Shown here: positions 39,975-49,497 of the stretch, in pieces
Layout of the letters: each line of letters opens with the position of its first letter
How positions within the stretch are numbered: position 1 is the stretch's first letter
Assembly: GCF_025717555.1 (NCBI RefSeq)
Contig: NZ_JAJIRP010000001.1
Coordinates: 558,001-622,000, forward strand
DNA: 64,000 bases
Reading direction: 5' to 3'
Origin: Paucibacter sp. B2R-40
GTDB taxonomy: Bacteria > Pseudomonadota > Gammaproteobacteria > Burkholderiales > Burkholderiaceae_C
The notes under the pieces: model-generated
Database searches by the model: none
What the model was told of the DNA's origin: nothing
Seen by the model: only the letters and a program-made list of their open reading frames with translations
Made by a program: the position numbers and the translations under genes

Positions 39975-40850
39975 TCAAAACTGCGCCTGCAGCGACAGGT
40001 AGCTGCTGCGCTGCGCGGTCTTGTTGGCGATCTGGCCGAGGTCCAGATAGGCGGCCGTCAGATTCACGTTGGGGCTGAGCCACCAAGCCAGGAACAGGTC
40101 CATCGCGCGCGTCTCCGGCGCGGCGCTCAGCAAACTGGGCTTGCTGCGCCACTCGATACCGATGGCCACATTGTCACGTGGCAGCACGGCCAGGGACAAC
40201 TCCAGCTGTGGGCGCAAAGCATCGCCACGGTCGCCGCCGAAGCCCAGCAAACCCATTTGATTGGCGCGTGTGCCGCGCAGGGTCAAATGGGTGAGCAGGT
40301 TGTAGCCGCCGGCAGCGCCCAGCCACAGCTTGGTGGCTGCCACATAGGGCTCGGTGTCAGCGCCATGTTTGGCGCCCAGCAATGTCGGTATGGCCATGTC
40401 GTGATTGCGCTTGTGCTGCAGGCCGATGGCGACTTGCGGGTGCCAGCTGTCGGCGTCATAGACGGCGTCACCCATCACCCGCCACTTCAACCCGAACACG
40501 TCCAGGCCGAGGTTTTGGCCCGGCACGGTGTCAGACAGACCGAAGTGCCAGCGTGCCAGCGACAGCTCGACACTGTCATACAAGCCCAGCGCCAGACCTG
40601 CTGCGTCCAAGGTGTAGCCGCCGCGCGTGTGCACCCGGGTGGCAAAAGCCGATGCGCCGATCTGGTCGCGGCTGCCGCCGCCGGCGATCAGCGCCCAGGG
40701 CGTCAAGCCGCCACCGGCCGCGCCTTCGATTTGACTGACGCCGGAGCTGCCCAGCAGCCGCTCGCCGGCGCCGGCTGGGCCGGCCCAAAGCGCCGCCAGC
40801 AGCAGCAGAGGAAGGTGCGGGCGATTCAGGGGACGGAGCGTCGCAGGCAT
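39975..40850 (-). CDS. DUF3034-like predicted outer-membrane protein
   Basis: A 291-residue exported protein with a signal peptide at about 1-28. The mature start GVSQIEGAAGGGLTPWALI and repeated alternating strands (LSLARWHFGLSD, LALGLYDSVELS, LTAAYLDLGQIA) look like a small beta-barrel; it ends in Phe (YLSLQAQF), as many outer-membrane proteins do. I assign it to DUF3034 from the GGVSQIEGAAGGGL-type start. The function is unknown. It is divergent, by 135 bases, from the truncated haemoglobin-cupredoxin-GGDEF/EAL operon and may share regulation with it. Confidence 0.7.
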   Translation of the reverse strand: MPATLRPLNRPHLPLLLLAALWAGPAGAGERLLGSSGVSQIEGAAGGGLTPWALIAGGGSRDQIGASAFATRVHTRGGYTLDAAGLALGLYDSVELSLARWHFGLSDTVPGQNLGLDVFGLKWRVMGDAVYDADSWHPQVAIGLQHKRNHDMAIPTLLGAKHGADTEPYVAATKLWLGAAGGYNLLTHLTLRGTRANQMGLLGFGGDRGDALRPQLELSLAVLPRDNVAIGIEWRSKPSLLSAAPETRAMDLFLAWWLSPNVNLTAAYLDLGQIANKTAQRSSYLSLQAQF

Positions 40851-40985
40851 GGTGTCTCAAGTTGGGCCGGGTGAAGTCGATACAGTTCGCGATAGGCGAG
40901 CGAATGAATTCACCATATGTCTGATCCCGTCATCGGACTTTTACCGCGCGGCTGAAGCCCTGATTTTTGCAATTCCAAATCCCCC

Positions 40986-41426
40986 ATGCCAAGTGTCCGC
41001 CTTCTTCCGCTGTTTTGCCTGCTGCTGGTCTTGCTCGGCTGCGCCACGCCGACGACAGCGCCGCCACCGTCCGAAAGTCTGTACGAGCGCCTCGGCGGCC
41101 AGGCCGGGGTGTCCGAATTGATGGGCCGTACCTTGACGCTTGCGGCCGCCGACCCGCGCACCCGGCGCACTTTTGAGGGCATCAAACTGAAAGCCTTGCA
41201 GGAAAGTCTGACCGAACAAATTTGCGCGCTGGCCGGCGGCGGCTGCCGCTACCAGGGTGAGACCATGACCCGCGTGCACAAGGACTTGCGCATCAAGCCT
41301 TCGGAATTTGATGCCTTTGTCGAGATGCTGCGGCAGGAAATAGATCACAGCGGCATCGACAGCCGGGCGAAGAATGAGCTGTTGCGTCTGCTGGCGCCCA
41401 TGAAACAGGCTATCGTGAGCCCTTGA
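40986..41426 (+). CDS. Group 1 truncated haemoglobin lipoprotein
   Basis: A 146-residue predicted lipoprotein. The lipobox LVLLGC puts the acylated cysteine at residue 19, followed by a Pro/Thr linker. The globin part starts SLYERLGGQAGV and carries a likely proximal haem ligand, H98, in TMTRVHKDLRI. C80 and C87 in ICALAGGGCRY are an additional pair. Most truncated haemoglobins are cytosolic O2/NO proteins; one anchored in the envelope is unusual. It is the first gene of a three-gene operon: 33 bases separate it from the cupredoxin-like gene. The inner or outer membrane location cannot be told. Confidence 0.85.
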   Translation: MPSVRLLPLFCLLLVLLGCATPTTAPPPSESLYERLGGQAGVSELMGRTLTLAAADPRTRRTFEGIKLKALQESLTEQICALAGGGCRYQGETMTRVHKDLRIKPSEFDAFVEMLRQEIDHSGIDSRAKNELLRLLAPMKQAIVSP

Positions 41427-41459
41427 TGAGCTAAAGCCTGCTGGAATCGAGCCAAAACC

Positions 41460-42077
41460 ATGAACTTGAGATCCCTGCTCAGCCGATCGCACGCGCTGCT
41501 GCTGCCAGGCCTGTTGGCCTGCCCGGCCGCCTATGCGCTGCCCTGGACGGTGCAACTGAACAATGCGGCCGGCAAGCCGCTGGCGGGCGCGGCCGTCGCC
41601 GTCGAGTTGCTCGGCCGCGCCAGCAAGGCCGGCAGCGCAGTCAAGTCCGAGATGGCGCAGCGCGAACGGCAATTCCAACCCGCTTTGTTGATCGTGCAGA
41701 CCGGCACGGCGGTCAGTTTCCCTAACTTCGACGTGGTTCGGCATCATGTCTATTCTTTCTCACCGATCAAGGTCATCGACGTCAAGCTCTACTCCGGCAC
41801 GCCGAGCGAGCCCATCGTGTTCGACAAGCCCGGCGTAGCCACGCTGGGCTGCAATATTCACGACCGCATGAGCGCCCACATCGTCGTCGTCGACACGCCG
41901 CTGTTCGCCGTCACCGACGCCAGCGGCAGCGCTAGATTCGACTTGCCGGCCGGGGAGCACAGGCTCAAGCTCTGGCATCCCAGCCTGAAGGCGCAGACAT
42001 TGCAAAGCCAGGTGCTCGTCGTGCCGGCCCATCTGCCGGTCAGCGGCGCGCAGACCAGCCTGACTCTGAGCGAATGA
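41460..42077 (+). CDS. Cupredoxin-like periplasmic protein (methylamine-utilisation type)
   Basis: A 205-residue exported protein with a signal peptide at about 1-26. The cupredoxin-like domain has FPNFDVVRHHVYSF (H95/H96) and, 30 residues on, C131-NI-H134-DR-M137, which together could bind a type 1 copper. Proteins annotated as methylamine utilisation often look like this, without a proven role. A carboxypeptidase-regulatory-like beta sandwich precedes and follows it (LPAGEHRLKLWHPSL). Its stop overlaps the GGDEF/EAL gene (ATGA), so the two are made together. Confidence 0.82.
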   Translation: MNLRSLLSRSHALLLPGLLACPAAYALPWTVQLNNAAGKPLAGAAVAVELLGRASKAGSAVKSEMAQRERQFQPALLIVQTGTAVSFPNFDVVRHHVYSFSPIKVIDVKLYSGTPSEPIVFDKPGVATLGCNIHDRMSAHIVVVDTPLFAVTDASGSARFDLPAGEHRLKLWHPSLKAQTLQSQVLVVPAHLPVSGAQTSLTLSE

Positions 42078-44491
42078 GGGTCGCTGTGTCGCCGCCGGCT
42101 TTTCTGAACTTGCGCCGCCTTGAAGGGCGCATCGTGGCGCTCTTTCTGGCCCTGTTGCTGGTGGTGCAATTTGCCAGCTTTGCGGTCATCCGCTCGAGCA
42201 TCGCACGCAATGCCGACGCCTCGATTGAGGCGGAGCTGAAGACCGGTGAGCGGGTCTTCAGGCGTTTGCTGGCGCAACGTGCCGACAAGCTGCACGATGC
42301 GGCTGAACTGCTGGCCAAGGACTACGGCTTCATCAAGGCAGTGGGGCTGCCCTTGGCCGAGCAGGGCACGGTCGAGACCATCAAGGATGCGCTGGCCAAT
42401 CAGGGCGAGCGCATTGGTGCCAGCGTGGTGGCCTACTTTGACAACGAACAGACGCTGGTGACCGCGACCCGCGACGATGCCGCTCGCTTTGCGAGTTTGC
42501 TGAAGCAAAAACTCGGCGGAACCGAAGCCGCACAGCTGGCGCTGCTGGGCGGGCAGATCTATCAGGTCGCGCTTGCACCGGTCAAGACGCCCGCCCAGGT
42601 TGGTTGGATTTTGATGGGCTTTGTGCTTGAAAAATCGGCCTTGCAGGATTTGCAAACGCTGTCCGAATTGCAGGCCGTGATCGTGATGCAGGATGAGCGC
42701 GGCCAATGGCGAAGCTTGCTGAGTCTGCTGGAGCCGGCCGTGGCCGATCGCTTGGCAGGCCAGATCCCGCCTGGCGGCGGGCTGTTCCCGGCCGACTTGG
42801 GTGCCGATCATTTGCGCGGCCTGTGGGTGCCTTTGATGGTGCCGGAGCAGCAAAAGCAACAGCAACAACTGGGTGTCTTGCTGTTGCGCTCTTTCGACGC
42901 GGCAGTCGCCCCTTACCGCGAGTTGCAGCTGACCTTGTTGGCGCTGACCTTGATCGGGGTGGCGATATTTGCGCTGGGCTCGGTATTGATGGCGCGGCGC
43001 ATCAGTGGCCCGGTGAAGGCGCTGGCCTTGTCTGCCGATCGCCTGGGCCAGGGCGACTACAACACGCCGGTGCTGCGCCAATCCGGCGACGAGGTCGGTG
43101 ATCTGGCGGCGGCGTTTGAGCTGATGCGGCGCGGCATTCGTGAACGTGACGAGAACCTCAGTCAGCTCGCCTACAAAGACCAGTTGACGAATCTGCCCAA
43201 TCGCTTGGGCTTCAGCGAGCGTCTGGCGGAGCGCTTGAGCCAAAGCGGCGCGCCTTTTGCCTTGCTGCAACTCGGCCTGGACCGCTTCAAACATGTCAAT
43301 GATGTGCAGGGCCATGATTTCGGTGACCGGCTGTTATGCGCCGTGGTGCGACGCTTGAAGAACCTGCTCGGGACGCAGCCGCACAGCTTGGCGCGCCTGG
43401 GCGGCGATGAGTTTGTCTTGCTCTTGGAGCAGGCCGATGAGGCCGCTGCGCGCGCCGCCGCCGAGGCGATTCGCCTGGATTTCGAAACGGCGCTGTGTCT
43501 GGATGAGCAGACTGTCGACCTCAGCGCCGGTATCGGCATCGTGCTGGCGCCGGCCCATGGGAATGACGCGAAGCTGCTCTTGAGTCGCGCCGCGCTGGCC
43601 ATGGTGGCGGCAAAAAAACGTCAGTCCGGCAGTGCGCTGTATTCGCCCCAGTTGGATGCGGGCAGCCAGGAGTCGCTGTCCTTGCTGAGCGAGTTGCGCC
43701 GCGCTGTCGAGGGCGGGCAGCTGCGCTTGTATTTGCAGCCCAAGGTCGACCTGAAAACCGGCCGCGTCAGCAGCGCCGAAGCCTTGCTGCGCTGGCAGCA
43801 TCCCGAGCGCGGCCTGGTGCCGCCGATGCAGTTCATCCCCTTTGCCGAGCAGACCGGCTTCATCCGCGAGTTGACGCGCTGGGTGCTGGCCGAATCCGCG
43901 CGGGCTTGGGCCGCTTTGCAAGCGCAGAACCAGGCGCTGCGCATCAGCGTCAATCTGTCCACCCGCGACCTGATGGACCAGGACTTGCCGGCCAAGATTG
44001 CCGCGATGCTGCGCCAGCATGGTGCCAATACCGATTCGCTGTGTTTGGAGATTACCGAGAGCGCCATCATGGATGACCCGCAGCGCGCGCTGGAGACCCT
44101 GAACCAGTTGCACGAGATGGGCTTCAAGCTTTCCATCGACGACTTCGGCACCGGCTACTCCTCGCTGGCCTATCTGAAGGGTTTGCCAGTTGACGAGTTG
44201 AAGATCGACAAGAGCTTTGTGCTGGCGATGGAGGCCGATCTGGGCGACGCAAGAATTGTGCGCTCGACCATAGAGCTAGCTCACAATATGGGGCTGTCGG
44301 TGGTGGCCGAGGGCCTGGAAACCGGCAAGGCCTGGAAGCTGTTGGCCGAGTTGGGTTGCGATGAAGGTCAAGGTTATTTCATCGCCAAGCCGATGCCGCA
44401 GCAGCAGTTTTCGGCTTGGCTCAGCGCCTGGACGGCACCTGACCTCAGTCACGAGTCGGTGGAAACCATGCTGGGCGGTCTGAATATCTGA
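42074..44491 (+). CDS. Membrane sensor with HAMP, GGDEF and EAL domains
   Basis: An 805-residue protein. A transmembrane helix (about 20-42) and a second (about 280-308) bracket a roughly 240-residue periplasmic sensor. HAMP follows (about 310-365), then GGDEF (about 375-535, RLGGDEFVLLLE intact) and EAL (about 555-790). The EAL catalytic set is complete: AEALLRW, VNLSTRDL, LEITES, IDDFGTGYSS, LKIDKSF, AEGLET, GQGYFIAKP. It may be bifunctional. Because it is translationally coupled to a cupredoxin-like protein and co-transcribed with a haemoglobin lipoprotein, a periplasmic redox or gas cue is the likely input. Its stop codon directly abuts that of the convergent PEP-CTERM gene. Confidence 0.92.
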   Translation: MRVAVSPPAFLNLRRLEGRIVALFLALLLVVQFASFAVIRSSIARNADASIEAELKTGERVFRRLLAQRADKLHDAAELLAKDYGFIKAVGLPLAEQGTVETIKDALANQGERIGASVVAYFDNEQTLVTATRDDAARFASLLKQKLGGTEAAQLALLGGQIYQVALAPVKTPAQVGWILMGFVLEKSALQDLQTLSELQAVIVMQDERGQWRSLLSLLEPAVADRLAGQIPPGGGLFPADLGADHLRGLWVPLMVPEQQKQQQQLGVLLLRSFDAAVAPYRELQLTLLALTLIGVAIFALGSVLMARRISGPVKALALSADRLGQGDYNTPVLRQSGDEVGDLAAAFELMRRGIRERDENLSQLAYKDQLTNLPNRLGFSERLAERLSQSGAPFALLQLGLDRFKHVNDVQGHDFGDRLLCAVVRRLKNLLGTQPHSLARLGGDEFVLLLEQADEAAARAAAEAIRLDFETALCLDEQTVDLSAGIGIVLAPAHGNDAKLLLSRAALAMVAAKKRQSGSALYSPQLDAGSQESLSLLSELRRAVEGGQLRLYLQPKVDLKTGRVSSAEALLRWQHPERGLVPPMQFIPFAEQTGFIRELTRWVLAESARAWAALQAQNQALRISVNLSTRDLMDQDLPAKIAAMLRQHGANTDSLCLEITESAIMDDPQRALETLNQLHEMGFKLSIDDFGTGYSSLAYLKGLPVDELKIDKSFVLAMEADLGDARIVRSTIELAHNMGLSVVAEGLETGKAWKLLAELGCDEGQGYFIAKPMPQQQFSAWLSAWTAPDLSHESVETMLGGLNI

Positions 44492-45061
44492 TCAGCCGCG
44501 CAGCGTTGGGCCGACTGGTTTGCGCCGTGTCAGCGCGACGCCGAGCAGTGCCAGGCCGAGCAAGCCAAAACTCGAAGGCTCAGGCACCGCGAAGCTCAGG
44601 ACACCTGCCTCGGTGTAGTTGCCGGCCGTGTTCAGTGGTCGATCAAAGCTGATGAAGGACAGACCGTAGCCGCTGGCTCGGTTGAAGGCGCCGCTGCCGC
44701 TGAGAATCTGGTAATCGATCTCGAACTGGCCGTCGCCGTCCGCGTCGCTGCCGGTCAGCAGACCAGTGAGGGTAGAGGCAAGATCCTGGCTGCTGAACTG
44801 GAAGCTGCCGCTCAAGCTCGCGCCGCTGGCGTCAAGCTTGTAGAGCACGCTGGAGAGCAGCGACTCGCTGAGGTCGGAGCCGAAACCCGGCGTGAGACTG
44901 CCGGTCCAGCTGCCGGTGCCCTGTGCGGCATCGACAGGCTGGCTTGTGCCGGCGCCGTCAAAGAACAGGTTGATGGTCGTCGGGCCGGCTTGGGCGGCCA
45001 GCGGCAGTGCTGCGCTGAGGCCCAGCAAGAGTTGGCAGGCGGATTGAGTCAGAGTGGGCAT
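44492..45061 (-). CDS. PEP-CTERM-sorted exported protein
   Basis: A 189-residue secreted protein. The signal peptide is at about 1-26 (LLLGLSAALPLAAQA). The middle is Ser/Gly/Asp-rich and includes LLTGSDADGDGQFEIDY, which looks like a calcium-type loop. The sorting tag is VPEPSSFGLLGLALLGVA followed by LTRRK. GGAG lies before the ATG at 45061; the frame extends further upstream but into the regulatory region. The function is unknown. It is divergent from the DUF4331 gene. Confidence 0.88.
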   Translation of the reverse strand: MPTLTQSACQLLLGLSAALPLAAQAGPTTINLFFDGAGTSQPVDAAQGTGSWTGSLTPGFGSDLSESLLSSVLYKLDASGASLSGSFQFSSQDLASTLTGLLTGSDADGDGQFEIDYQILSGSGAFNRASGYGLSFISFDRPLNTAGNYTEAGVLSFAVPEPSSFGLLGLALLGVALTRRKPVGPTLRG

Positions 45062-45128
45062 GAAATTCTCCAGGGTTTGCTTGAGTTGAAGCGAAGTCGC
45101 GTCAAGCCATACGCCGCGATTGCGGCCT

Positions 45129-45256: not shown

Positions 45257-46792
45257 ATGCAAGCTCAGCGACTCCCCTTGGCACCTCTGGCTGCCGCAAT
45301 TCTTTTGGCCTGCACCGGCTTGACGCAAGCGTCCAGCCACCGCGAAGCGCCCTTCATCACCACCGCTCCGAAGGTGGACGGCACCGACTTCTATATGTTT
45401 CGCAGCTACGAAGAAGGCCGCAAAGACTATGTGACGCTGATCGCTAACTACCAGCCTTTGCAGGCTGCGTATGGCGGCCCTAACTATTTCGCGATGGACC
45501 CCAACGCGCTGTATGAGATCCACATCGACAACAACGGCGACGCCAAGGAAGACCTGAGCTTCCAATTTCGCTTCAACAACAGCTTGGCAGCAGGCGGCAA
45601 GGGTGTGGCCCTGCCGATCGGCGGCAAGAATATTCCTATCCCTTTGGTTCAGAAAGGGCAAGTCAGCGGCTTGGCTGATGGCAATTTGAACCTGGCAGAA
45701 ACCTTCGGCGTGAGCTTGGTTCGTGGCGACCGCCGCAGCGGCGTTGCGATGCCCTTGACCAATGCCCTGACTGGCAGTGCGAGCTTTGACAAGCCGGTCG
45801 ACAATATCGGCACCAAGACAATTCCTGACTATCCTGGCTATGCCGACCAGCATATCTACAGCGTCAATATGCCGGGTTGCGATAAGCCTGCCAAGCTTTT
45901 TGTGGGCCAACGCAAGGATGCGTTTGCAGTCAATTTGGGCGTTATCTTCGATCTCGTCCACGCCCCTGTCGACGTGATCACCAACCCGGCCTTGATCGGT
46001 GCGGCGCAAAACACCATTGATGATGCCAACGTCACGACCCTGGCCATCGAGGTGCACAAGAGTTGTTTGACCAATGGCGATGATGTGATCGGCGGCTGGA
46101 CCACCGCCAGCCTGCGTCAGTCGCGCGTATTGAATGCCACGCCGCCGTCGGGTCATCAAGCCAGCGAGAAGGTCGGCGGCAGCTGGGTGCAGGTGTCGCG
46201 CCTGGGCATGCCCCTGGTCAATGAGGTGGTGATTGGCCTGCCGGACAAGGACAAGTTCAACGCCTCATCACCCAAAGGGGACGGCCAGTTCATCGACTAT
46301 GTGACCCATCCCTCGTTGCCGGCCTTGCTCGAAATCGCCCTGGGTTTGCCCAATACGGCGCCGACCAATTTCCCGCGCTTTGACCTGGTCACGACCTTCC
46401 TGACTGGCATCAAGGGCGTCAACCAACCCAAGAATGTGGTCGGCTCGGAGATGCTGCGCTTGAACACGGCGATTGAACCGGTGCGCTTTGATCAACAAAA
46501 TCGCTTGGGCCTGGTCGGCAACATCTTGGCCGGTGGCACGGACAACGCCGGCTACCCCAATGGCCGTCGGCCCAAAGATGATGTGGTCGACATCTCGCTG
46601 GTGGCGGTGATGGGGGGTCTGTGTATGGCCAACGGCAATAACAACGCGCTGGGCTTCGGTGCGGACTGCAATCCGAGCAAGGTGCCGCTGGGTGCCACGG
46701 CCTTCAAGCTGCATGACGCGGTGGACCAGGCGGTCGTGCCCTTGCTGAGCAAGTTCCCTTATCTGTTCACGCCGATTGCCGGCAGCAAGTAA
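45257..46792 (+). CDS. DUF4331-family exported protein
   Basis: A 511-residue secreted protein. A signal peptide covers 1-25 and ends before SSHREAPFITTAPKVDGTDF, the hallmark start of DUF4331. Further family features are YEIHIDNNGDAKEDLSFQF, an acidic calcium-loop-like segment, and DDVVDISLVAVMGGLC near the end. Four cysteines in the C-terminal half may form disulfides. The biochemical role is unknown. GGAG precedes the ATG, and a strong terminator follows the stop, so it is transcribed alone. An ECF sigma/cupin pair lies 700 bases downstream. Confidence 0.9.
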   Translation: MQAQRLPLAPLAAAILLACTGLTQASSHREAPFITTAPKVDGTDFYMFRSYEEGRKDYVTLIANYQPLQAAYGGPNYFAMDPNALYEIHIDNNGDAKEDLSFQFRFNNSLAAGGKGVALPIGGKNIPIPLVQKGQVSGLADGNLNLAETFGVSLVRGDRRSGVAMPLTNALTGSASFDKPVDNIGTKTIPDYPGYADQHIYSVNMPGCDKPAKLFVGQRKDAFAVNLGVIFDLVHAPVDVITNPALIGAAQNTIDDANVTTLAIEVHKSCLTNGDDVIGGWTTASLRQSRVLNATPPSGHQASEKVGGSWVQVSRLGMPLVNEVVIGLPDKDKFNASSPKGDGQFIDYVTHPSLPALLEIALGLPNTAPTNFPRFDLVTTFLTGIKGVNQPKNVVGSEMLRLNTAIEPVRFDQQNRLGLVGNILAGGTDNAGYPNGRRPKDDVVDISLVAVMGGLCMANGNNNALGFGADCNPSKVPLGATAFKLHDAVDQAVVPLLSKFPYLFTPIAGSK

Positions 46793-46814
46793 ACCTGCAA
46801 GTCTGAACTGCAAG

Positions 46815-46853
46815 GGGCGCCGTGAGCCAATCGCTTGCGGCGCCCTTCTTTTT
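46815..46853 (+). terminator. Terminator of the DUF4331 gene
   Basis: GGGCGCCG (46815-46822) pairs with CGGCGCCC (46838-46845), followed by TTCTTTTTT. It begins 23 bases after the stop codon. Confidence 0.88.
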
Positions 46854-46925
46854 TGGTGGATCTGCCCGCTTGATCTTTAGAGTCGCTGACCTGATCCAAA
46901 CAGCCCGGTGCGGCGTATTCATTGC

Positions 46926-47492
46926 ATGCTTTCTCAACATCGACGATATTCCCCCAGCGCAGCGGCCCGCTTTGTCCTGATCAGTCGCTGGCGCATGACT
47001 TGCACCAGCCAGCCGGTCTGGGAGCTGCTGACGGATCTGGAGGGCTGGCCCAAGTGGTGGCCGCATGTGTGTCGGGTGCGCCTGCTGCAGCGTGCGCCGG
47101 TCGGCGAAGCGGGCACGCGTGCGGCGCTGACCTGGCGCAGCCCACTCGGTTATCGCTTCACCATTGATGTGCTCAATACCCGGCGGGAGCGTGCGGCAGA
47201 CGGCCATTGCGAGATCGAAGGCCAGTCCAGCGGTGATTTGCTGGGTCAGGGTTTGTGGGTCCTGGACCCGGTGCCTTGCTCTTCTGACGCTGTCGCGGCG
47301 CAGCAGGTTGATATCACTTACCGTTATGAAGTCGAGTTAGGCCGGCGCTGGATGCGCGTGGCCGCGCCGCTGCTGCGCCTCTTGTTCAAGTGGAGCCATT
47401 TCGCGGTGATGGAGGCAGGTGCGCGGGGCATGGCCGCGCAACTCAATTGCCGCAGCAGCAAACCCAAACATTGGACCGTGGTGCAAAGCTGA
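46926..47492 (+). CDS. SRPBCC-superfamily protein
   Basis: A 188-residue START/Bet v 1-like fold protein: MTCTSQPVWELLTDLEGWPKWW near the front, then LTWRSPLGYRFTIDVLN and a long C-terminal helix (RMRVAAPLLRLLFKWSHFAVMEAG). It would bind a hydrophobic ligand; no enzyme signature is evident. The ATG at 46926 is used, although the conserved part begins about 20 residues later. A sequence resembling the RpoE/ChrR-class promoter (TGATCC at 46892) lies just upstream. It is convergent with the ChrR-like gene. Confidence 0.72.
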   Translation: MLSQHRRYSPSAAARFVLISRWRMTCTSQPVWELLTDLEGWPKWWPHVCRVRLLQRAPVGEAGTRAALTWRSPLGYRFTIDVLNTRRERAADGHCEIEGQSSGDLLGQGLWVLDPVPCSSDAVAAQQVDITYRYEVELGRRWMRVAAPLLRLLFKWSHFAVMEAGARGMAAQLNCRSSKPKHWTVVQS

Positions 47493-47525
47493 GTTCACCG
47501 AACTTGGACTCAGCGCGCTGGCTGG

Positions 47526-48476
47526 TCAATAACCGGCTCGCATCTCCGGGTCGGCCGCAGCGGGATCGATTGCGCCACAGAAATACAGCAAGCAGCCGAC
47601 GTCCGAAAGAAGCCCCTCATGGCCGGTGCCGGCCGGGGCGAACTGGAACTCGCCCGCGCGCAGCAGCACATCACTCAGGAACAAATCACCTTCCAGCATC
47701 AGGCATTCTTCGCCCAGCTCATGCGGGTGCGCAGGCACTGTGGCCCCGGGCTGGAAGCGCACCAGCATCGAAATGCGCTCGCCCACCATATGCAGCGGCT
47801 TGATCTCCACGCCTTGGCGCAAAGGCTGCCAGCCCTGCGCGTCGGCGACGACCCGGTGTGAGGCTGCGGTTTGGCCGAACTCGTTGGCCGCCAAATCAGC
47901 CAAGTCATCCGATAGGCCGGCTTTGCTGCTGCGCCAGTAGAGCAGGGCGCCGGTCGTGGAACTCAAGCTTGAGTCGGCCGGCCAGGGATTGGCCAGACCG
48001 ATCAATTGGTAATCTTGAGCGGCCAAGGTCGGTGTGCCCAGCGCAGCTACATCCAGCCTCAACTCGCCGCTGAGAACCAGGATTTCATGCACGGCAGCGT
48101 CCGGGCCATGCAGGGCGCCCGCGCCCGCTCCCGGGGCCCAACGGGTACCAGGGGCCAATTGAATCAAGCTGCTCTGGCTGAGTTCGTCCTTGTGCTGGCC
48201 GCAGACCCGTACGCCTGGGGCCAGGTCTTGCCAGACGGCGTCGGCGAGGCGGCGAGTGGTCAAGCCCAAATTGGCGGCAGCGCTTTGCGCCGCACGCGCC
48301 AGCAGCCTTTGGCGCAGCGCGCCGGCCATCGTCGATGGGGGTTCGATGGGCGCAAATTCGACGGCCAGCGTCGGCAGCAGGCCCAGGCCTGCTGCGGGCG
48401 CCACGCCGGGCAAAGTGCGCGGCTCCAGGGCCAAGGCAGCAGTCAGATCGGAATGGGGTCGTGAGTTTTTGTTCAT
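47526..48476 (-). CDS. chrR: ChrR-like double-cupin protein, putative anti-sigma factor
   Basis: A 316-residue protein with two cupin-like domains (about 90-190 and 205-310). The second has PAHPHELGEECLMLEGDLF, a good metal-binding cupin signature. The ChrR family pairs with ECF sigma factors in singlet-oxygen responses. The N-terminal zinc anti-sigma domain with HxxxCxxC is absent here; residues 1-85 hold no cysteine. Whether it can sequester the sigma factor is therefore uncertain. It starts 18 bases after the sigma gene and is surely co-transcribed with it. Confidence 0.8.
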   Translation of the reverse strand: MNKNSRPHSDLTAALALEPRTLPGVAPAAGLGLLPTLAVEFAPIEPPSTMAGALRQRLLARAAQSAAANLGLTTRRLADAVWQDLAPGVRVCGQHKDELSQSSLIQLAPGTRWAPGAGAGALHGPDAAVHEILVLSGELRLDVAALGTPTLAAQDYQLIGLANPWPADSSLSSTTGALLYWRSSKAGLSDDLADLAANEFGQTAASHRVVADAQGWQPLRQGVEIKPLHMVGERISMLVRFQPGATVPAHPHELGEECLMLEGDLFLSDVLLRAGEFQFAPAGTGHEGLLSDVGCLLYFCGAIDPAAADPEMRAGY

Positions 48477-48494
48477 GTTAATGATTGCTGAGCA

Positions 48495-49316
48495 TCAAGC
48501 AGTGGACGTTTGCGGTCCCAAGCATTTGCGCAGGGCCAACATAGCGCGGCGCAGATGGGACTTGACCGTGCCCAAAGGCAGGTCGATTTGGCTGGCGATC
48601 TCTTCGTGGGTCAGCCCCTTGAAGAAGGCCAGCGCCACCAATTGCCGCGGCACGGCGTCCAGTTGTGCCAAAGCTTGGTGCAGCTGCTGATTGGTTTGCA
48701 CCGCTGCCAGCAGATCATGCGGATCGCCATGACCGCCATCGCAGCCGCCATCGCTGTGCTCGGCCAGTGCGTCCATCGCCTCGCCCAGCGCATCGGCCGA
48801 CACGGTGTTGGCCAAGACCCGGCGTCGCGCGCGCAAGGCGTCGAGGGCACGGCTGCGTGCAATCGTCAGCAGCCAAGCCAAGGCGCTGCCGCGCTGCGCA
48901 TCGAAGCGGGGCGCTTGGCGCCACACCTGCCAAAAGCAGTCTTCGGTGACTTCTTCGGCAATGGCAGGGTTGCGCACGATGCGCAGGGCCAGGCCATAGA
49001 CGCGTCCCACGCAGGCGCGGTAGAGCGAATCCAAAGCCGCTTCGTCCTGGTGCACGATGCGCGCCAGCCAGGCCTGCAAAGCCGGCTCGTCCGCGCTCGG
49101 CATGGCGCGCAGAGGCGCCAAGTCGGTGTCGGCATGCCCATCTTCCGACAAGGCATCACTGTCTTGCGCGTCGGTCAGCTCATCGATCTCAAAGGGCTCG
49201 ATGCCCACGGAGGCCGGCGGTTCAGCCGGGCCAGCGAAGTAAACCATTGCAGTTACCCGGCAAGGTGTTTCCCGGGGCGCTTTAGGCGCCAGCCGGGGCA
49301 AGGCGAAAAAGTCCAT
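48495..49316 (-). CDS. ECF-family RNA polymerase sigma factor
   Basis: A 273-residue sigma-70-family factor. Region 2 (about 95-165) includes DSLYRACVGRVYGLALRIV and CFWQVWRQAPRFD. Region 4 (about 215-265) includes LDAVPRQLVALAFFKG and LPLGTVKSHLRRAM. About 90 acidic residues precede region 2, longer than usual. The ATG at 49316 may therefore be too early; MVYFAGP at 49247 is the alternative. Its pairing with a ChrR-type cupin points to the RpoE/ChrR-like class that answers photo-oxidative or envelope redox stress. Confidence 0.9.
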   Translation of the reverse strand: MDFFALPRLAPKAPRETPCRVTAMVYFAGPAEPPASVGIEPFEIDELTDAQDSDALSEDGHADTDLAPLRAMPSADEPALQAWLARIVHQDEAALDSLYRACVGRVYGLALRIVRNPAIAEEVTEDCFWQVWRQAPRFDAQRGSALAWLLTIARSRALDALRARRRVLANTVSADALGEAMDALAEHSDGGCDGGHGDPHDLLAAVQTNQQLHQALAQLDAVPRQLVALAFFKGLTHEEIASQIDLPLGTVKSHLRRAMLALRKCLGPQTSTA

Positions 49317-49497
49317 TGCCACGCCATTGTGACGGCAAGTTGTGACGGCCGGGGCTGTGTTCGCCTGGGTCGAGCCGGTTTTGTCTGAGTTTTCATAGCG
49401 TGTCCAGTCGGAGATCTTGCCCGCCCAATCGAAACTTGGGCAAGGCGAAATGACTCTCCAAGCGGGTACGCCGACCGTTCTAATTTGGATGCAGCTT

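Follow-up and report, generated by a model that had tools for sequence, protein, structure and literature searches.

Which signal, if any, would a haem protein, a copper protein and an enzyme of cyclic di-GMP (c-di-GMP) turnover read together when their genes lie side by side? The question is raised by a stretch of 64,000 nucleotides from Paucibacter sp. B2R-40 (contig NZ_JAJIRP010000001.1, positions 558,001 to 622,000; henceforth the window), in which genes encoding an exported group-1 truncated globin, an exported amicyanin/pseudoazurin-like cupredoxin and a membrane receptor composed of dCache_3, HAMP, GGDEF and EAL domains follow one another, with a DUF3034 gene on the opposite strand. A preliminary description of this DNA had proposed an envelope system in which O2, nitric oxide (NO) or copper redox state is read by the haem and copper proteins and passed to c-di-GMP. 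Open reading frame (ORF) coordinates agree with its placement of the four genes, including a gap of 33 bases between the globin and cupredoxin genes and one of -4 before the receptor gene, the start of which overlaps the cupredoxin stop by 4 bases. We consider the chances about even that the set is an envelope haem-copper sensory module, consisting of two co-selected modules and feeding mainly a c-di-GMP phosphodiesterase. The ligands, the export signals and the conservation of the set fit the proposal of a haem/copper envelope sensor, while O2 as a stable ligand of the globin is disfavoured and the complete cyclase site is not confirmed.

The globin gene is the most constant neighbour of DUF3034. 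In a census of 200 genomes of the family, each at least 90% complete, 71 genomes carry 72 DUF3034 copies, 71 of which have a globin gene within 2 kb; conversely, DUF3034 adjoins 71/73 high-scoring versus 0/29 low-scoring globins, and genomes matching the globin profile at all carry one to three such genes. A cupredoxin gene lies within 5 kb of 36 of the 72 copies, the cupredoxin counts of this census omitting the 15 weakest of 135 rows. At class level, DUF3034 is present in 16 of 276 genomes, with the globin alongside in ten and, in one more (G102), at a distance of about 10 kb within one contig; another match (G185) stops at a contig end. Named loci were taken as the best 80 out of 560 confirmed places of DUF3034; of these, 79 have a globin, 68 a cupredoxin and 51 a GGDEF/EAL gene. 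For the 62 of the 80 that are flanked by 4.5 kb or more on either side, the counts are 61, 55 and 43, respectively. The genomes concerned include Pseudomonas, Methylophilus, Methylovorus and Aquabacterium. The preliminary description had made its proposal depend on the genes being neighbours elsewhere, and the set indeed recurs across Beta- and Gammaproteobacteria in several gene orders; a version composed of DUF3034, globin and cupredoxin is found in two alphaproteobacterial loci. An all-against-all comparison of neighbouring ORFs revealed no widely common fifth gene: the two largest extra clusters each cover 13 of 134 loci, and one of them resembles shadow ORFs. Two further tandem genes matching the GGDEF-EAL profile are seen about 2 kb past DUF3034 in L065, L066, L067, L121 and L175.

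The set is made up of two modules, DUF3034 with the globin and the cupredoxin with the dCache-HAMP-GGDEF-EAL receptor. Such a receptor gene adjoins 17 of 20 cupredoxin genes located off the cluster (hand-picked from 84, in 19 genomes), the three without it being lower-scoring. Writing D for DUF3034, g for globin, c for cupredoxin and E for the GGDEF/EAL receptor, 115 DUF3034 rows contain the complete arrangements c>E>D>g> (32), D<g>c>E> (28), D>g>c>E> (2) and E<c<D>g> (2), which on a quick tree of these rows need at least three changes (27 for all labels); two further orders, seen in single rows, are probably ORF-calling artefacts. Since the four genes stay together in several orders across distantly related bacteria, a real sensing system is likely.

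The two modules also tend to share genomes. A cupredoxin is encoded in 63/71 genomes with DUF3034 versus 32/129 without (Fisher p 3e-19), or 49/54 versus 20/72 by genus (p 3e-13), and even where none lies within 5 kb of DUF3034 it is found elsewhere in 27/35 genomes versus 32/129 (Fisher p 4e-8), in tests only partly corrected for shared ancestry. It is thus very improbable that the modules are unrelated and clustered solely through one stress regulon: although they are often apart in one genome and sigma factors adjoin some sets, at least four different gene orders bring the modules together, and their co-occurrence persists without linkage.

Turning to the output, the receptor matches the Pfam models dCache_3 (50.5 bits), HAMP (46.9), GGDEF (111.6) and EAL (257.1). 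Residues were counted in 64 aligned rows, namely the window and 63 ORFs from 58 loci. The eight catalytic EAL residues (E, N, E, D, D, K, E, Q) are complete in the window and in all 62 rows spanning them, as the preliminary description had it for the window. Its claim of a complete cyclase site fails: the GGDEF letters are present in the window, but the position that we take, from PleD numbering, to be the metal Asp of D-x-D-x-F-K-x3-N is Gly401. Over the 64 rows this position holds Gly in 34, Asp in 17, Asn in 10 and Ser in 3, and the metal Asp is combined with a usable GGDEF/GGEEF-type signature in 16, so that the domain is mostly degenerate. An active diguanylate cyclase in the window is therefore rejected. 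The nearest solved GGDEF-EAL protein, 'Motility regulator' 4rnh, which is followed by others including DosP, has Asp at the metal position. A degenerate GGDEF domain next to an intact EAL domain makes c-di-GMP breakdown the likely output, and the receptor is, judging from these residues, probably a phosphodiesterase and not a two-way cyclase/phosphodiesterase. Two known identities were also rejected: a LapD-type receptor, given the intact EAL and a LapD model score of 150 bits against a cut-off of 1020, and DosP itself, at 324 bits against an equivalog cut-off of 857 and with no PAS match.

The globin matches Bac_globin at 47.2 bits (cut-off 21). Its haem ligand H98, pointed out in the preliminary description, and each residue of the Cys pair C80 and C87 are kept in 118 of 119 rows. 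The window protein carries a lipobox (LLG-C), and a similar motif is present in 55 of 108 globins; 25 of the other 53 were inspected by eye, and most of these have either an N-terminus resembling a signal peptide or an upstream Cys that the pattern does not cover. As about half of the globins have the motif, the earlier label of lipoprotein suits the window and not the family as a whole. Mapping on Tetrahymena (3aq5/3aq7) and HbN places L50, L71 and L75 at the distal positions B10, E7 and E11. B10 is Leu, Met, Val or Ile in 116 of 120 rows (the others being two Ser, one Tyr and one His), E7 is Leu, Val, Ile or Phe in 118/119 and E11 likewise in 119/119; neither the window globin nor nearly any of the rows has the polar distal network of the HbN type (Tyr B10, Gln E7/E11). 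The fold family, the proximal His and a Phe at CD1 are common to HbN (1idr) and the window globin, which differs in being exported, in its Cys pair and in its hydrophobic distal residues. The A2 globin profile scores the HbN chain 2gl3, which in the alignment carries Phe at B10 and Val at E11, at 90.0 bits versus 86.4 for 1idr; in wild-type HbN these two positions are Tyr and Gln.

Because the distal pocket is apolar and offers no hydrogen-bond stabilisation, stable O2 binding is disfavoured, and the candidate of a classical O2-binding globin is weakened. Apolar haem pockets have ligand preferences that underlie a reading of NO over O2; what may be left for this globin is NO, CO, or redox/electron transfer. 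As to denitrification of its own as an NO source, copper nitrite reductase has no profile match, and there is one weak match of the cytochrome d1-like type (22.9 bits, 36.9 with in-frame neighbours; cut-off 25.5). A single-sequence scan of viral contigs gave no relative of the globin.

In the cupredoxin, the CxxHxxM motif noticed earlier is present as C131, H134 and M137, and together with H95 these ligands are invariant in 94 of 94 rows; fold and His/Cys/His/Met ligands are those of a type-1 copper cupredoxin. Both are common to amicyanin and pseudoazurin, from which the window protein differs in that its partner is a signalling receptor and its cupredoxin domain is apparently embedded in a transthyretin/CarboxypepD_reg-like sandwich (the CarboxypepD_reg-like Pfam score, 27 bits, is under the cut-off of 32.3). 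The family is large, 7363 of 7999 scored candidates matching at E <= 0.001. Several relatives are labelled plastocyanin or 'methylamine utilization protein' in databases; despite the latter name, nothing in the neighbourhood of the set indicates methylamine, and a search of the genome for methylamine dehydrogenase (PF06433), the control of which likewise matched nowhere, gave no match. Named close relatives of the cupredoxin and globin belong to Roseateles and Paucibacter. Another type of cupredoxin carries additional residues behind the first of its copper His ligands (L027, L035, L047 and L055); it has no link to GGDEF/EAL genes (L027, L163, L164, L166) and in several loci adjoins a pair of genes for an extracytoplasmic function (ECF) sigma factor and RskA. 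The three lower-scoring off-cluster loci mentioned above, L160-L162, likewise have no GGDEF/EAL gene.

DUF3034 (304.7 bits, cut-off 25) has the predicted structure of a 12-stranded outer-membrane beta-barrel and is, on this model, a predicted outer-membrane channel. FapF, KdgM and NanC share this barrel fold at 8-12% identity, and DUF3034 is set apart from them by a conserved N-terminal segment rich in Gly, EGAAGGGLTPWA; the fold match to FapF is at 11% identity, the fap genes not having been specifically sought. A transport module, with DUF3034 as the route for import or secretion of a haem/copper compound or peptide, globin and cupredoxin as carriers of metal or haem and c-di-GMP as regulator of the transport, is improbable in our view: no gene for a transporter or secreted substrate is present in more than about 10 of 134 loci, those found resemble local synteny, and a barrel fold in common proves no function. 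A divergent DUF3034 subfamily with a EGAAGGGIVPWALLA-like N-terminus is found in L028, L029, L030 and L031, in genomes without the globin of the set; PF11231 is therefore broader than the four-gene system. In loci of Aquimonas, Arenimonas and Lysobacter, a secreted-repeat protein is encoded directly upstream of DUF3034: as a Pfam Lipoprotein_15 match in L110 (6959-7513) and, as similar proteins by eye, in L098 (7354-7902) and L092 (7301-7720).

Beyond c-di-GMP, other signalling genes accompany the set. In some loci missing a GGDEF/EAL gene, a kinase, a methyl-accepting chemotaxis protein (MCP) or an ECF sigma factor adjoins it. In L022 the dCache-HAMP part is kept and a Ser/Thr kinase replaces GGDEF-EAL, while DUF3034-globin-cupredoxin is followed by an MCP in L133 and by a histidine kinase with another sensor in L137, the two alphaproteobacterial loci; these single cases are leads, not trends. 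An ECF sigma factor gene lies next to 11 of the 34 loci that lack a GGDEF/EAL gene versus 1 of the 56 that have one (p 6e-5), among the 90 of 110 loci with enough flank and with L018, where the receptor is in pieces, counted as without. RskA-type anti-sigma genes are present in 10 of the 15 loci examined, and a ChrR cupin stands beside the sigma factor in L110 (by Pfam) and L098 (by eye). That the same envelope genes are combined with different transducers suggests a sensing role and not a peculiarity of c-di-GMP. Accordingly, c-di-GMP, the output assumed in the preliminary description, is retained as the commonest partner and not as the sole one.

These sigma factors, anti-sigma genes and the cupin of L110 also speak for an envelope redox or detoxification module directed at NO, peroxide or singlet oxygen, with globin and cupredoxin as electron-transfer partners, DUF3034 as entry channel, and the receptor or ECF factor only tuning expression or behaviour; the similarity of the cupredoxin to electron carriers and the loci missing the receptor point the same way. 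We nevertheless regard it as unlikely. From what is known of HbN, a globin whose pocket is apolar and devoid of Tyr/Gln should perform poorly as an NO-dioxygenase, the closest genetic tie of the cupredoxin (the 17 of 20 off-cluster loci) is to the receptor and to no oxidoreductase, and among the 30 largest neighbour clusters no redox enzyme, judged by eye, occurs in more than 7 of 134 loci.

Under the reading of an envelope haem-copper sensor, with which the export signals (seen by eye) and the conserved ligands would fit, an exported type-1 copper protein and an inner-membrane dCache-HAMP-(degenerate GGDEF)-EAL receptor would form one module, and an exported globin with an apolar pocket and the 12-stranded outer-membrane DUF3034 channel the other. 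The channel would admit to the periplasm either a small solute or a compound that is redox-active or reacts with haem/copper. There the globin haem may bind it or itself change redox state; NO is the likeliest gas, because the pocket is apolar. The cupredoxin would dock on the dCache domain and so pass on the state of ligand or redox, and HAMP would then toggle the EAL phosphodiesterase, lowering or raising c-di-GMP with the envelope signal. Haem or copper state would in this way control the enzyme; cofactor occupancy, signal, protein contacts and direction of control are what we infer from the gene set.

Several observations weigh against this reading. Half of the family DUF3034 copies (36/72) have no cupredoxin within 5 kb, four of the 16 class-level DUF3034 genomes (G024, G139, G229 and G237) have no such globin, and the co-occurrence tests carry the partial correction mentioned above. 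D83, A89 and P173 are invariant in the periplasmic domain (63 of 63 rows), which contains no invariant His, Cys or Met that could sense metal directly, the nearest being a His at position 110 in 46/63 (Gln in the window) and Met181 in 54/63. In L089, L092, L094, L116, L117 and L130 a membrane sensor-like protein without a recognised output domain is encoded (Pfam covered four of these loci). Of the 34 loci without a GGDEF/EAL gene, the 11 with ECF neighbours would fit a stress regulon equally well, and among the remaining 23 most have no identified signalling partner.

A wider proposal is possible, though we hold it only tentatively: DUF3034, the apolar-pocket globin and the cupredoxin may together be a movable sensor head of the envelope (outer-membrane channel, haem and copper), reading NO or redox state and plugged in evolution into varied outputs, mostly a dCache-GGDEF-EAL phosphodiesterase, also ECF sigma/anti-sigma pairs and, singly, a Ser/Thr kinase, a chemotaxis receptor and a histidine kinase. 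If true, this would be a haem-plus-copper sensory apparatus acting outside the cytoplasm.

Table 1. Positions in the window of the four genes, their key residues and the genes that follow
Feature	Position	Strand	Remarks
DUF3034 (PF11231) gene	39975..40850	-	291 aa; ORF call and Pfam
Divergent intergenic region	40851..40985		135 bases; promoters both ways presumed, from position
Exported group-1 truncated globin gene	40986..41426	+	146 aa; Pfam 3e-12
Globin C80	41223-41225	+	Cys pair
Globin C87	41244-41246	+	Cys pair
Globin H98	41277-41279	+	haem ligand, proximal (F8) His
Exported amicyanin/pseudoazurin-like cupredoxin gene	41460..42077	+	205 aa
Cupredoxin H95	41742-41744	+	Cu ligand
Cupredoxin C131	41850-41852	+	Cu ligand
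Cupredoxin H134	41859-41861	+	Cu ligand
Cupredoxin M137	41868-41870	+	Cu ligand
Membrane receptor gene, dCache_3-HAMP-GGDEF-EAL	42074..44491	+	805 aa; Pfam
Receptor Gly401	43274-43276		at the metal Asp position
PEP-CTERM sorted protein gene	44492-45067	-	convergent with the receptor gene
DUF4331 protein gene	45257-46792		
START-like protein gene			within 45257-49322
ChrR-type cupin gene	47526-48476		other strand relative to DUF4331
ECF sigma factor gene	48495-49322		other strand relative to DUF4331

The host genome (5.6 Mb) contains 24 EAL genes. The divergent region presumably holds promoters for the DUF3034 and globin sides, and neither an FNR/DNR-like nor a sigma-54-like site was found in it at up to two mismatches. 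A scan of 37 intergenic stretches of divergent loci detected an FNR/DNR-like site with at most two mismatches in six (L063, L069, L078, L079, L081 and L082), at one mismatch in L069 and L082, and a sigma-54-like site in several; a common regulator site in the divergent promoter was rejected, none being common to the scanned stretches. Past the receptor gene, positions 45257-49322 of the window hold the genes from DUF4331 to an ECF sigma factor. The latter reaches 183 bits against a profile whose seed was an ECF gene next to a DUF3034-globin set; a common regulator for this gene and the set is only a possibility, because the profile may be a general ECF one.

How does the set compare with known systems? 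DosP, of the oxygen-sensing E. coli pair DosP/DosC, is a single cytoplasmic phosphodiesterase with a haem-PAS domain. Its GGDEF-EAL output is homologous to that of the window receptor and a haem protein is the proposed sensor in both; in the window the haem protein is an exported globin encoded by its own gene, and a copper protein joins it. Like other membrane GGDEF/EAL receptors controlled from the periplasm, YfiBNR (TpbB) combines a periplasmic partner, an outer-membrane component and a membrane c-di-GMP receptor, a layout akin to that of the set, and the TpbB GGDEF domain is a weak match to the receptor; in the window, a globin, a cupredoxin and a barrel take the place of YfiR/YfiB, and the output is an intact EAL. 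H-NOX and NosP with their partner cyclases or phosphodiesterases tie haem-based NO sensing to c-di-GMP through an apolar haem pocket, features that the set would share as proposed here, but they are cytoplasmic, have another haem fold and work without a copper protein or porin; none of the four window proteins has a Pfam match to the H-NOX family.

The preliminary description knew of no characterised system of this composition, and searches of open-access full texts yielded no description of the four-gene set. The portion available of one text in which truncated haemoglobins of iron oxidisers are discussed does not mention a DUF3034-globin-cupredoxin-receptor set (PMC3770913). The system would be of a known kind, that of c-di-GMP receptors controlled from the periplasm, in a composition with globin, cupredoxin and DUF3034 that these searches did not meet. 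It provides a context for DUF3034, for exported globins with a Cys pair and an apolar pocket, and for a large cupredoxin family, and represents a candidate route by which NO, redox or copper conditions in the envelope may be passed on to c-di-GMP via two metal cofactors outside the cytoplasm.

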